A stretch of 64,000 nt of DNA from Bdellovibrionota bacterium. Its GTDB lineage: Bacteria; Bdellovibrionota; Bdellovibrionia; Bdellovibrionales; Bdellovibrionaceae. The DNA is taken from assembly GCA_963170155.1 (NCBI GenBank), contig CAUJGP010000003.1, positions 1-64,000 on the forward strand. The letters are read 5' to 3'. The notes under the pieces are model-generated. The model did no database searches and was not told the origin of the DNA. It worked only from the letters and a program-made list of their open reading frames with translations. Both the position numbers and the translations under genes were made by a program. This document shows positions 14,382-28,440 of the stretch, piece by piece. The first letter of the stretch is position 1, and each line of letters begins with the position of its first letter.

Positions 14382-14774
14382 GGATTTTTCCTCGTTGTTC
14401 ATTAAAAGTTCTGTTGATTTTTCAGAGAGTCTCTTAGGCGCTCTTCATTATATCAACACCATTGATTTATTAGTCTTGGTTCTCGCTTCATTCGTTGATG
14501 CGGCCATCTTAGTCTAACAAAAAATGGTCTTACTATAATAGGTATTATTATACTTCTTGGCGCTGTTTTGTAGAGAACAAAGTGCAAACCAAATTTTTTA
14601 TGTGCCGTCACAAGTTATGATTAAAGACCCTCGCCTCTTGACTCACTAAACAGGTCGGGACTATCCTTTAAGATATATTTAGTAGCTCCACAGGATGTTG
14701 CCTTTTATAAAAAGCACGATCGCAAGATTTTTGTGTATCGGTATGGAGTGAATTCATATTGTGCGAGGGGTGAT
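14382..14774. other. Intergenic region between divergent genes
   Basis: Holds promoters for the secreted protein (minus) and the membrane protein (plus). A TATAAT-like box lies at 14535-14540 and a possible TTGACT/CTATCC pair at 14638-14666. The frame of the downstream gene stays open back to 14625 without a good start. No RNA gene is apparent. Confidence 0.4.
14638..14666 (+). promoter_or_regulatory. Weak sigma70-like promoter candidate
   Basis: TTGACT (14638-14643) and CTATCC (14661-14666) are separated by 17 bases upstream of the membrane-protein gene. The -35 is good but the -10 is poor. Confidence 0.25.
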
Positions 14775-15413
14775 TTGGCACAAGTGTTTGCGCAGGGACG
14801 GCGAATCGTTTCTATTTTCTTTACGATACTTATTGTGCGTATTGGGCCGGTAGTGACATTACCGGTGGTAAAATGGTTTGATTATTGGAGCGCCCATCGC
14901 TCTATGATTGTTTCATTAACCATCGTGAACACGTTAATTACAACGACTTCAGAAGTTGGTTCAAGGACCATTATCTCCAATGTTACCGGAGCCAAAGAAA
15001 ATGGGTTTATTGTTAAGGCTCCGGATGGATCTCAGCGTGTTCATCGCCAATCTCTCATTAATATCCTCATGACAGTGTTAGCATCTCTTTTAGGTGGGCC
15101 TATTTACTTTATCAGTAGGAGGCATCATCGTTTTTTCTTTTTTATTAGTTTTGGAATTTTTAACTCTATTCTAGCTCAATCCATGAGTTCCATTTTTATT
15201 GATGGTTTTCTTTTAATTGTGCAACGGAGGTTATTCTTTGACTTTGTTTACAACGCCAGTATTAAATTTTTATTGTTTGAATATGTTCGTCCACATTTAT
15301 TGAAGCATAGGGCTTCGCCAGGGTTAATTTTAGGTTTTAGGATTACTCAGGATTTTCTAACGACAAGCATGAGAGTGATTATTTTAAACATTTTAAGGTT
15401 AAGTGGACACTGA
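14775..15413 (+). CDS. Hypothetical integral membrane protein
   Basis: About 212 residues with four or five hydrophobic segments (around residues 12-35, 46-60, 95-135 and 140-165) and many arginines in the connecting loops. No catalytic motif or family was recognised. A GAGGGG site (14765-14770) precedes TTG at 14775; a GTG at 14733 is an alternative. The frame remains open upstream to 14625, so a truncated older gene is possible. It lies 193 bases before the AAA+/CUB gene on the same strand and could be cotranscribed with it. Confidence 0.5.
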   Translation: MAQVFAQGRRIVSIFFTILIVRIGPVVTLPVVKWFDYWSAHRSMIVSLTIVNTLITTTSEVGSRTIISNVTGAKENGFIVKAPDGSQRVHRQSLINILMTVLASLLGGPIYFISRRHHRFFFFISFGIFNSILAQSMSSIFIDGFLLIVQRRLFFDFVYNASIKFLLFEYVRPHLLKHRASPGLILGFRITQDFLTTSMRVIILNILRLSGH

Positions 15414-15606: not shown

Positions 15607-17871
15607 ATGTCATTGAATCAATTGGGTTGCTGGTTAGGAGTGGGAATCCTGGTATTCGGTGGTTTTTCAGCGGGGTGGGCGGTAGAGCCTGATTTAAATA
15701 AATTGGAAAAATCAGGATACATCATGGGGCCAGGAAATGCCAACTTTCCTATTTCAGAGGCTTGGAAAAGACAAGTTTCACTTATGACAAACGTCGATGT
15801 CTTTGATGCCCTTGCTGAGAGAATTGAGAGTGTAGTTTGTGGAGGAGAACAGAATAAATCAGTTCTCGTTGTGGGTGATCCTTCGGTGGCTTATTTATAC
15901 CTTTATGCTCGAATAGCGAGTTCGCGGTCAAATTCTCGATGCCCAAGCAACATGTGGCACGTGCAACTTAATATTGGAAAAATAGAGTCTGGAAATAGAT
16001 TTGTGGGTGATGTCGAGCAATATTGGATTAATAATGTTCTAGAGCCTTCAAGTGGGAAAGATGTTATCATATACTTAGATGCTCTGGGAATGCTTGTTGG
16101 TTTAGGATCTCATTCTAATGATGAAACTGGAATTGAAAGAGAGTATGTTGCAAGTATTACATCTGGACGAATGCGCTCTGTAGCCTTTATGGATAAGTAT
16201 GAGTATAATGAGATGATTCGCTCTCGTAATGCCTACGTGCTTGAATCTTTTGGAGACAAAATAATACTTCCTCCTGTTGATAGTGCACAAGTTTTCAAAT
16301 TAGCTCAAACTTATATGAAAGTTTTGTATCCTTCCATGGTTTTGAGGGATAAAGACTTACAGTTTATCATTAAAAATACAGCTTACTATCAACCAAATCG
16401 CAACGAACCGGATCGTACTCTTTCTGTGGTGAATGCTTTGATTCGAGATTTTGGCCCTGGTAACGAATCAAAACCGGAAATAAGGTGGATTGATGTTCAG
16501 TCGGCTCATCCTTACCCACCTAATATAACTGAAGAGTATATTATAGATCAGCCTGAGTTTGAGGCACTTCAATTGAAGTTTGATTTTTTTGATTTTGAAG
16601 ATAACTATGATTATTTAGAAATTTATGATGGCCACAAAAATGATGTAACGCCATTATTGAAGTTGAGTGGAAAGAAACCTGCTGGAATGCGAACGGCCTA
16701 TTTTGGGACTAATAAGCTTCGTTTATTAATGACTACTGATAATTCGGGTACGAACCAAGGATTTAAGATCACTACCATTTATGGTAAGAAGTTTTCGGCT
16801 TATACATTTAGCCGTGAAGAGGTACGTCGATCTATTCTGTCAGTAGCTCAAGTTCCACAATGGCTCATAGACCGAGATTATAGTATCATAAAGGATCTTG
16901 AAGCTAATTTAAATAGTGATGTTGTGGGCGTGGCGGAAGGTAAAAAGGATTTAGTTCGTTTGGCTAAAAATGGTTATGTCGCTGGTCGAACGGATGATAA
17001 ACCTATTGCAACGGCTTTACTGGCTGGACCTACAGGGACTGGGAAAAGTTACATTGCAAAGAAAATGGCTGACTTCACAGGATTAAAGCTTATTACGTTG
17101 GACATGACTAACTATAAAGAAGTGCGAAATTTTGCGAGCTTTCAAGAAGTGATGGCAAGAAGTTTAACGAATAACCCCTATGCTATTTACCTTTTTGAAG
17201 AGATTGATAAAGCATCCATTGAAGTTCTCGATCAACTGTATTTTATGATGGACGAAGGAGTTTTTTATGATGCTCATCAGCGTCCTCTTTTTGCTCGAGG
17301 TGCTTATATCCTTATGACAACGAATGCAGCTTCAAATGTGATTTTGAAAGATCCAAATAATCCTAATTTAAGATCTCTTGTGATGGAAGACCTAAGAGCT
17401 AGTTTTCGCATGAGCTTTCTGAACCGATTTGATGCGATCAGTATTTTTAAGCCTTTTACGGACCCTGAGTTTCACCAGCTTGCTCAAACTTTAGTGAGCA
17501 AGAAGCTGGAGAGGATGAAAGAGGTGTTCGAATGGGATATGTCTGTTGATGCGGGAACTTTGCATTTTATTGCTACCCATGGACGGAGCGCTGAGTTTGG
17601 AGCTCGCCCGATGGAGAGACTCATTGAAAATACACTAGGAATAGGAATTGCGGAATATCAGTTATCAATGGGAGCTATCCCTGAGCTTGCTAAGATTAAG
17701 ATTCAAAAACTAGAGGGTTTGTATGACTTTAAGATAGATGTTGATGGGCACGCGCTTGAGTATGCAGTTGATATTTCAAATAATGGATTACTGAGCTTAG
17801 AATTGCAAAATATAAAAATACCCCACTCCTTGCTCAAATTCTTTGAAGCTCATCGACTTTATGAGGACTGA
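15607..17871 (+). CDS. ClpA/ClpB-like AAA+ protein with leader and internal CUB domain
   Basis: A 754-residue protein with a hydrophobic N-terminus (residues 9-24, possible cleavage after SAGWA). Residues about 65-240 resemble the first ATPase module of ClpA/ClpB, but the Walker A reads VVGDPSVAYLYLY without GKT and the Walker B IIYLDAL has lost its Glu. Residues about 297-392 form a CUB domain: FDFFDFEDNYDYLEIYDG, then LRLLMTTDNSGTNQGFKI; acidic residues typical of the CUB calcium site are kept. Residues about 437-720 are a second module: GPTGTGKS (474-481), Walker B YLFEEIDKA (Asp to Glu), sensor 1 MTTNA, Arg finger FLNRFDAI, sensor 2 GARPMERL. AGGAAGGGG supports the ATG. A terminator follows. 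Export is likely from leader plus CUB, but the leader lacks N-terminal positive charges. Confidence 0.8.
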   Translation: MSLNQLGCWLGVGILVFGGFSAGWAVEPDLNKLEKSGYIMGPGNANFPISEAWKRQVSLMTNVDVFDALAERIESVVCGGEQNKSVLVVGDPSVAYLYLYARIASSRSNSRCPSNMWHVQLNIGKIESGNRFVGDVEQYWINNVLEPSSGKDVIIYLDALGMLVGLGSHSNDETGIEREYVASITSGRMRSVAFMDKYEYNEMIRSRNAYVLESFGDKIILPPVDSAQVFKLAQTYMKVLYPSMVLRDKDLQFIIKNTAYYQPNRNEPDRTLSVVNALIRDFGPGNESKPEIRWIDVQSAHPYPPNITEEYIIDQPEFEALQLKFDFFDFEDNYDYLEIYDGHKNDVTPLLKLSGKKPAGMRTAYFGTNKLRLLMTTDNSGTNQGFKITTIYGKKFSAYTFSREEVRRSILSVAQVPQWLIDRDYSIIKDLEANLNSDVVGVAEGKKDLVRLAKNGYVAGRTDDKPIATALLAGPTGTGKSYIAKKMADFTGLKLITLDMTNYKEVRNFASFQEVMARSLTNNPYAIYLFEEIDKASIEVLDQLYFMMDEGVFYDAHQRPLFARGAYILMTTNAASNVILKDPNNPNLRSLVMEDLRASFRMSFLNRFDAISIFKPFTDPEFHQLAQTLVSKKLERMKEVFEWDMSVDAGTLHFIATHGRSAEFGARPMERLIENTLGIGIAEYQLSMGAIPELAKIKIQKLEGLYDFKIDVDGHALEYAVDISNNGLLSLELQNIKIPHSLLKFFEAHRLYED

Positions 17872-17963: not shown

Positions 17964-18005
17964 TGCGGCGAAGTTGTTTTGAATAGCTTCGCCGCATTTT
18001 TATTT
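17964..18005 (+). terminator. Rho-independent terminator after the AAA+/CUB gene
   Basis: Ten-base perfect arms TGCGGCGAAG (17964-17973) and CTTCGCCGCA (17987-17996) enclose a 13-base loop and are followed by TTTTTATTT. Confidence 0.9.
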
Positions 18006-27843: not shown

Positions 27844-28440
27844 ATGAAGAATTTAATCAAGTGCACCCTATTAGGTTTACTCAGTGTTAGCACCATGGCA
27901 TTAGCACAATCTACGGATCATAGACTCATGAAGGATGACGTTAGTAATGATCATGCCTCTTCTCGTTTCATTTGTATATCTAAATACAATGACGGAAGAT
28001 CTCCTTATACCGTAGGGGTTCAAAATGCCTTGGATTTATCAATAATTAAAACAAATTTAATCTATAATGATGAAAATGAGTGTCGAGATGCTATTGAATC
28101 TTCTGTCATTTTCAATGATAAAGCCTATGTTTGTGCTTCTAAATACAAGGATGAAGCGCCACCTTATAGCATTTATACCATTCATGGTAATGTGGACACT
28201 CAATTGCAGTTAATCTATAAGAGCACTCAATTATCACAGTTAACTTATAGTGATGCTGATTCATGCCAAATCGCATTGGCACGAGCAAAAATAACTCCTC
28301 AAGTTCTTGGAATCTGTGCTCCTAAGTATGGAAGCAAGGCTTCGTCTTGGTCTCTTCTTGCAGTTCATCACCATACAAATGCAATTTCTAATAAAAATGT
28401 AACGTTTTCTTCACGCGATGACTGTGAGCGTGGTTTATAA
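27844..28440 (+). CDS. Secreted protein with three tandem two-cysteine repeats
   Basis: Signal peptide (residues 1-21, ending MALAQ) followed by three related units at residues about 42-88, 95-150 and 156-198. Each begins Cys-x-x-Lys-Tyr (CISKYND, CASKYKD, CAPKYGS) and ends with a second Cys (Cys80, Cys141, Cys194). This implies one disulfide per unit. I do not recognise the family. The gene has its own AT-rich promoter region and a terminator at 28573, so it is probably monocistronic and exported in quantity. Function unknown. Confidence 0.75.
   Translation: MKNLIKCTLLGLLSVSTMALAQSTDHRLMKDDVSNDHASSRFICISKYNDGRSPYTVGVQNALDLSIIKTNLIYNDENECRDAIESSVIFNDKAYVCASKYKDEAPPYSIYTIHGNVDTQLQLIYKSTQLSQLTYSDADSCQIALARAKITPQVLGICAPKYGSKASSWSLLAVHHHTNAISNKNVTFSSRDDCERGL

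Follow-up and report, generated by a model that had tools for sequence, protein, structure and literature searches.

P0001, a Clp-type AAA+ protein of 754 amino acids encoded by a member of the Bdellovibrionota related to the predator Bdellovibrio, is composed of a leader, a first Clp module (D1) with a dead ATP site, a CUB domain, a second Clp module (D2) with intact nucleotide-site motifs and a beta-rich tail, in this order. The aromatic pore loop is found in D1 and is missing from D2, and a gene for a membrane protein is conserved upstream. Judging from the leaders, the CUB domain and the orthologues, the bulk of P0001 most probably lies outside the cytoplasm, whether the protein is exported or anchored; we regard this conclusion as well supported. 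To our knowledge, the ATPase of bacterial AAA+ unfoldases operates in the cytoplasm, since that is where ATP is found, and we know of no unfoldase powered by ATP whose activity outside the bacterial cytoplasm is established. A Clp-type protein that is conserved, that combines a leader with an extracellular-type domain and whose ATP site appears to be under selection would be a clear and testable exception, and it raises the question of where ATP would come from outside the cytoplasm.

The window (the whole stretch of 64,000 nucleotides analysed here) contains the following features, all on the plus strand.

14775–15413, plus: P0007, polytopic membrane protein of about 212 amino acids, directly upstream of P0001
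15591–15600, plus: Shine-Dalgarno-like GAGGAAGGGG, six bases 5′ of the ATG (judged from the sequence)
15607–17871, plus: CUB-AAA protein P0001, 754 open codons
15607–15681, plus: leader, residues 1–25 (hydropathy), with possible cleavage between GWA and VE
15784–16470, plus: D1 module, residues 60–288 (alignment with ClpA and ClpB of the same genome and with orthologues)
15874–15897, plus: D1 P-loop remnant GDPSVAYL (alignment)
15991–16008, plus: D1 aromatic pore-loop motif GNRFVG (GRKYVG or GYMYVG in orthologues)
16495–16785, plus: CUB domain, residues 297–393 (Pfam, PDB sequence matches, AlphaFold, Foldseek)
16879–17676, plus: D2 module, residues 425–690, large and small subdomains (Pfam; pLDDT mostly >85)
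17026–17049, plus: D2 Walker A GPTGTGKS, invariant in orthologues
17188–17214, plus: D2 Walker B YLFEEIDKA, invariant in orthologues, its first acidic residue Glu and not Asp
17964–17996, plus: terminator-like hairpin 3′ of P0001, 15 pairs and a T tail (pattern match only)

The two Clp modules and the CUB domain

In D1 of P0001, GDPSVAYL replaces GEPGVGKT and LDAL replaces IDEL, leaving no functional Walker A or B motif; the Lys-Thr of Walker A and the Walker B motif are gone from every orthologue read as well. The place of the pore loop nevertheless keeps G-x-x-[FY]-V-G in the orthologues read. D2 presents the reverse arrangement. Pfam recognized AAA_2 at residues 465–611 (E 5.1e-19) and ClpB_D2-small at residues 621–687, and sensor 1 (N573), the Arg finger (R607) and sensor 2 (R667) are all in place. 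The D2 motifs GPTGTGKS, YLFEEIDKA, MTTN, SFLNRFD and GARPMER are unchanged in the orthologues, but the GYVG pore loop is absent, according to the alignment, from D2 of P0001 and of all orthologues.

Identity between P0001 and its orthologues was 53–60% in D2, 36–45% in D1 and 28–48% in the CUB domain. Since D2 is the most conserved part and its nucleotide-site motifs are identical, an ATP-dependent function is probably under selection, and the same conservation suggests that D2 hydrolyses ATP. Its Walker B motif reads EE, not DE, an Asp-to-Glu substitution that could make hydrolysis slower or abolish it. Conservation of the ATP site in D2 and its decay in D1 point to a division of loop and motor between the rings, and ordinary two-ring threading is doubtful because D2 lacks the GYVG loop. 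P0001 might also be an exported pseudo-ATPase, whose AAA rings would serve as a scaffold presenting CUB domains without hydrolysing ATP. The dead D1 of every orthologue read, the EE of Walker B and the missing D2 pore loop are consistent with such a scaffold, and free ATP is not known to occur in the periplasm or elsewhere outside the cytoplasm. We consider this explanation unlikely, since Walker A, sensor 1, the Arg finger and sensor 2 of D2 have stayed invariant at about 45% overall identity whereas the D1 site has decayed.

The CUB domain and the full-length protein were folded separately. Structural matches of the full-length AlphaFold model were all of the Clp/HSP100 type (ClpC, ClpA and ClpB by Foldseek); its CUB region was poor (pLDDT <50), because the alignment used contained no CUB domains. 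When residues 284–401 were aligned with 18 other CUB domains, AlphaFold gave an all-beta fold with a pLDDT of 90, for which the best Foldseek matches were the CUB domains of C1s, C1r, MASP, enteropeptidase and neuropilin. Pfam placed CUB (PF00431) at residues 301–389 (E 6.6e-9; score 36.5 bits, cut-off 21.4), and the PDB sequence matches of the region are CUB proteins. E331, D335 and D378, at the calcium positions, occupy the only acidic columns that are invariant across 19 CUB domains of the clade, and they would form the triad of a putative calcium site. Of six orthologues read, four have the whole triad and two (L232 and L236) have lost part of it. Elsewhere in the clade the CUB domain sits in subtilases, of which the example in the same genome (L007) has a leader; the CUB matches in the class are proteins of about 550 amino acids.

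An earlier note, written from the DNA alone, had described a leader and a CUB domain between two Clp/HSP100-type modules, a layout borne out by Pfam, alignment, AlphaFold and the orthologues. Its degenerate first module was confirmed by the alignment with ClpA, ClpB and orthologues, and the Walker A, Arg finger, sensor 1 and sensor 2 motifs that it ascribed to the second module are all present in the alignment. The same is true of its CUB domain with E331, D335 and D378, seen by Pfam, AlphaFold, Foldseek and the 19-CUB alignment; the note would have abandoned its view if no CUB fold existed at residues 297–392, and the fold was found there. Its term ‘unfoldase-like machine’ holds insofar as the protein is of the Clp/HSP100 type, but has to be tempered because D2 lacks the substrate-threading GYVG. 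The note missed this absence of GYVG from D2 as against the aromatic [FY]VG loop of D1, the EE of Walker B, the conserved upstream membrane-protein gene and the repeated export of HSP100-type proteins in the phylum.

Orthologues, leaders and the upstream membrane protein

Within the class, a search of 144 genomes turned up no second protein built in this way, and an exact short-peptide scan of genome contigs with P0001 returned nothing. The uniqueness suggested by the class-only search was overturned by a search of 369 genomes of the phylum, many of them fragmented and some of them MAGs, in which two candidates were scored per genome. Full-length relatives with 42–47% identity occur in four genomes of family f12, one of which has two copies, and a fifth f12 genome has the CUB-AAA orthologue in two pieces. 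These genomes belong to another class of the phylum and are of the Bacteriovoracaceae type. The earlier note had proposed to look for the same architecture in related genomes, and it is thus present in five genomes of another class; homologues lacking both leader and insertion would have spoken against the note, and the complete orthologues keep both, together with the dead D1 and D2.

All leader calls are based on hydropathy. Residues 6–25 of P0001 are moderately hydrophobic, GWA/VE is cleavage-like, and the crude score of the leader lies at the 71st percentile among genes sampled from the same genome. Taken alone the leader is weak, because its n-region has no Lys or Arg; it becomes convincing because the orthologues carry textbook signal peptides. 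Every orthologue with a readable N-terminus has a leader, with a positive n-region (MK-type) and an AXA-like or Cys end, and that of L232 is lipoprotein-like, ending in ISISC-GSE. Leaders of this kind would place the rest of the protein outside, and the CUB domain is a binding module that is normally found outside the cell. The leaders and the CUB domain thus support the note's suggestion of an exported or membrane-anchored protein, and the orthologue leaders speak against its other option, a protein of the cytoplasm held by its N-terminus. If the leader were such an anchor and the AAA modules stayed in the cytoplasm, where ATP is certain, the CUB domain would have taken on a binding role inside the cell, and the P0001 leader, having no positive n-region, could insert with its N-terminus out. 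We find this very doubtful in view of the MK-type orthologue leaders with AXA-like or Cys ends, the location of the other CUB domains here in secreted-type subtilases, and the ordinary character of the P0001 CUB by AlphaFold and Pfam.

P0007 gave no Pfam match. Its longest open reading frame runs from a GTG at 14733 to 15413; judged by its homologues, the likely start is the TTG at 14775. In three genomes (G180, G200 and G182) the gene immediately preceding CUB-AAA encodes a homologue with 40–45% identity, and in a further one (G181) a homologue in the same identity range lies beside the N-terminal piece of the CUB-AAA gene. Thus, a P0007-type gene is conserved upstream of most CUB-AAA orthologues. 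Across 143 genomes of the class of P0001, the only clear copy is that of the window's own genome (G000), where 193 bp separate P0007 from P0001; the two need not share one transcript. Recent transfer of this gene pair is unsupported by its base composition, which is ordinary for the window.

In the genome with two copies (G201), each CUB-AAA gene adjoins a leader-bearing subtilase, and the P0007 homologue (37% identity) lies away from them in a run of seven genes whose gaps do not exceed 51 bp (L245 468–10664, contig G201:C140). This run encodes four exported proteins (two of the AAA+ type, one VWA protein and one trypsin-like protease), the P0007 homologue, an RCC1-repeat protein and a putative TLC/NTT-type ATP/ADP transporter. 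The transporter is a distant TLC match (1.2e-15 in Pfam, far below the NCBIfam cut-off), and it was seen beside exported AAA genes at this one locus only. NTT genes occur also in free-living bacteria, where their roles are unknown (PMC5381601), and for this reason we take the G201 gene as a lead and not as proof of an ATP supply.

Other exported ATP enzymes in the phylum

Besides P0001, the same genome encodes another Clp-like protein with a leader and two AAA modules, P0002 (L004 463–2976, G000:C11). A profile search found its family in 12 genomes of the class and in five from other classes. Wherever the N-terminus is complete, the protein begins with a leader-like segment, least clear in L077 and L078; those read (L069–L078, L118–L122 and L124) have no GYVG in D2, and a beta-rich N-terminal domain is frequent. 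In a tree of D2 sequences, the CUB-AAA proteins form a clade of their own (100/100 support), separate from the P0002 type, which for D2 argues against a single exported clade of the two. It follows that HSP100-type proteins have seemingly been exported more than once in the phylum. Nor do all exported Clp-like proteins lack GYVG, as P0009, an exported AAA+ protein of the G201:C140 run, has both a leader and GYVG.

Two unrelated families extend the picture. Exported AAA-AAA-M41 proteins of 1300–1450 amino acids with HExxH kept occur in 26 of the 369 genomes (L135 748–5004, L143–L168), and leader-bearing ABC1-kinase-like proteins of about 660–840 amino acids occur in many, including those of genus g4 (L133 2766–5057, L169–L188). 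Most P0002-type proteins end in a short one-Cys tail (SCTKLFY-type), the AAA-AAA-M41 proteins in a tail of the same kind, and the ABC1-kinase-like proteins in a C-terminal Cys tail of the RCEMVF type. The tail is rare among the other exported proteins sampled, and P0001 does not have it; it is possibly a C-terminal sorting signal common to unrelated exported ATP enzymes. A likeness of the tail to torsin GCK was ruled out, as GCK is the torsin sensor-2 motif (PMC4999309). We found no description of exported AAA+ proteins of this phylum in the open-access literature.

Three further leader-bearing or exported proteins were noted in passing: a PrkA-like protein, of the AAA-type serine kinases, encoded close to the gene of an exported Clp-like protein (L142 12565–15012), a protein of about 440 amino acids with kinase-like H..N and DFG motifs and a C-terminal LCGRVFNH tail, for which Pfam gave no more than a weak match to FhuF (L224 17592–18965), and, at 27844–28440 of the window, a Cys-rich protein of 198 amino acids with repeated C-containing units.

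The earlier note had thought of action inside a prey cell, where ATP is available. The known predators of the lineage, and the several families of ATP enzymes exported in the phylum (Clp-like, AAA-M41 and ABC1-kinase-like), would suit a secreted machine of this kind. We think it distinctly improbable; with a conserved polytopic membrane protein as neighbour and a lipoprotein-like leader in one orthologue, attachment to the predator's own envelope is the better fit. A wider proposal, which we put forward tentatively, is that the Bdellovibrionota run ATP-powered remodelling and proteolysis outside the cytoplasm, combining exported ATP-enzyme families (CUB-AAA with its membrane partner, P0002-type Clp-like proteins, AAA-AAA-M41 proteases and ABC1-like kinases) with secreted serine proteases, and obtaining ATP through an NTT-type exchanger or from prey.

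Possible mode of action and likeness to known systems

From the evidence above we infer how P0001 might act, at which site and with which ATP. The explanation that we favour, and to which we give about an even chance, is an extracytoplasmic, membrane-associated remodelling ATPase partnered by P0007, in which D1 grips, D2 drives and the CUB domain docks. In its favour we count, besides the orthologues, their leaders and the conservation of D2, the subtilases beside both CUB-AAA genes of G201, the G201 run that joins exported AAA+ proteins to a trypsin-like protease, a P0007 homologue and a TLC/NTT-type transporter, the P0002 family, and torsin as a precedent. P0001 would leave the cytoplasm through its Sec-type leader and work, paired with P0007, on the outward-facing side of the inner membrane or farther out. 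D1, no longer binding ATP but retaining its aromatic loop, would contribute passively, as a ring for gripping or assembly. D2 would be the sole ATP-using ring and, without a pore loop of its own, would drive a conformational change in a torsin-like manner, instead of threading by itself. The CUB domain, of the type fused to secreted subtilases in the clade, may dock substrates or secreted proteases. The swap between a dead ring with a loop and a live ring without one would amount to a natural experiment on how HSP100 proteins divide gripping and power.

P0001 shares with ClpA, ClpB and ClpC (HSP100, class I) the order of two Clp-type AAA+ modules and the D2-small domain, and within D2 the Walker A, sensor 1, Arg finger and GAR sensor 2 motifs. 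It differs from them in having a leader and an inter-module CUB domain, in lacking the N-domain, the M-domain, D1 ATP binding (as predicted) and the D2 GYVG, and in the EE of its Walker B; its score against the ClpA equivalog (TIGR02639, NCBIfam) was 137.1 bits, below the cut-off of 993.15. P0002-type proteins resemble P0001 in their leader, Clp-like D1-D2 and D2 without GYVG, but differ in their separate D2 clade, their lack of a CUB domain and, mostly, their Cys tail and beta-rich N-terminal domain. The CUB subtilases of Bdellovibrio and its relatives, one of which has been noted in B. bacteriovorus (PMC2605481), have the same type of CUB as P0001 (27–39% identity, with the same conserved acidic residues), placed C-terminal to the protease and not, as here, within an AAA+ protein. 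Torsins, the AAA+ proteins of the animal ER lumen, have a signal sequence and no pore loop (PMC4999309), and share with P0001 an HSP100 D2-like ATPase, a leader and the missing loop. P0001 differs in being bacterial and in its two modules, its CUB domain and a GAR, not GCK, sensor 2; against Torsin (PF06309) it scored 18.2, below the cut-off of 27, which only L233 of the scanned orthologues passed (28.2). By analogy, and not as a family assignment, torsins may thus be the nearest working counterpart of P0001.
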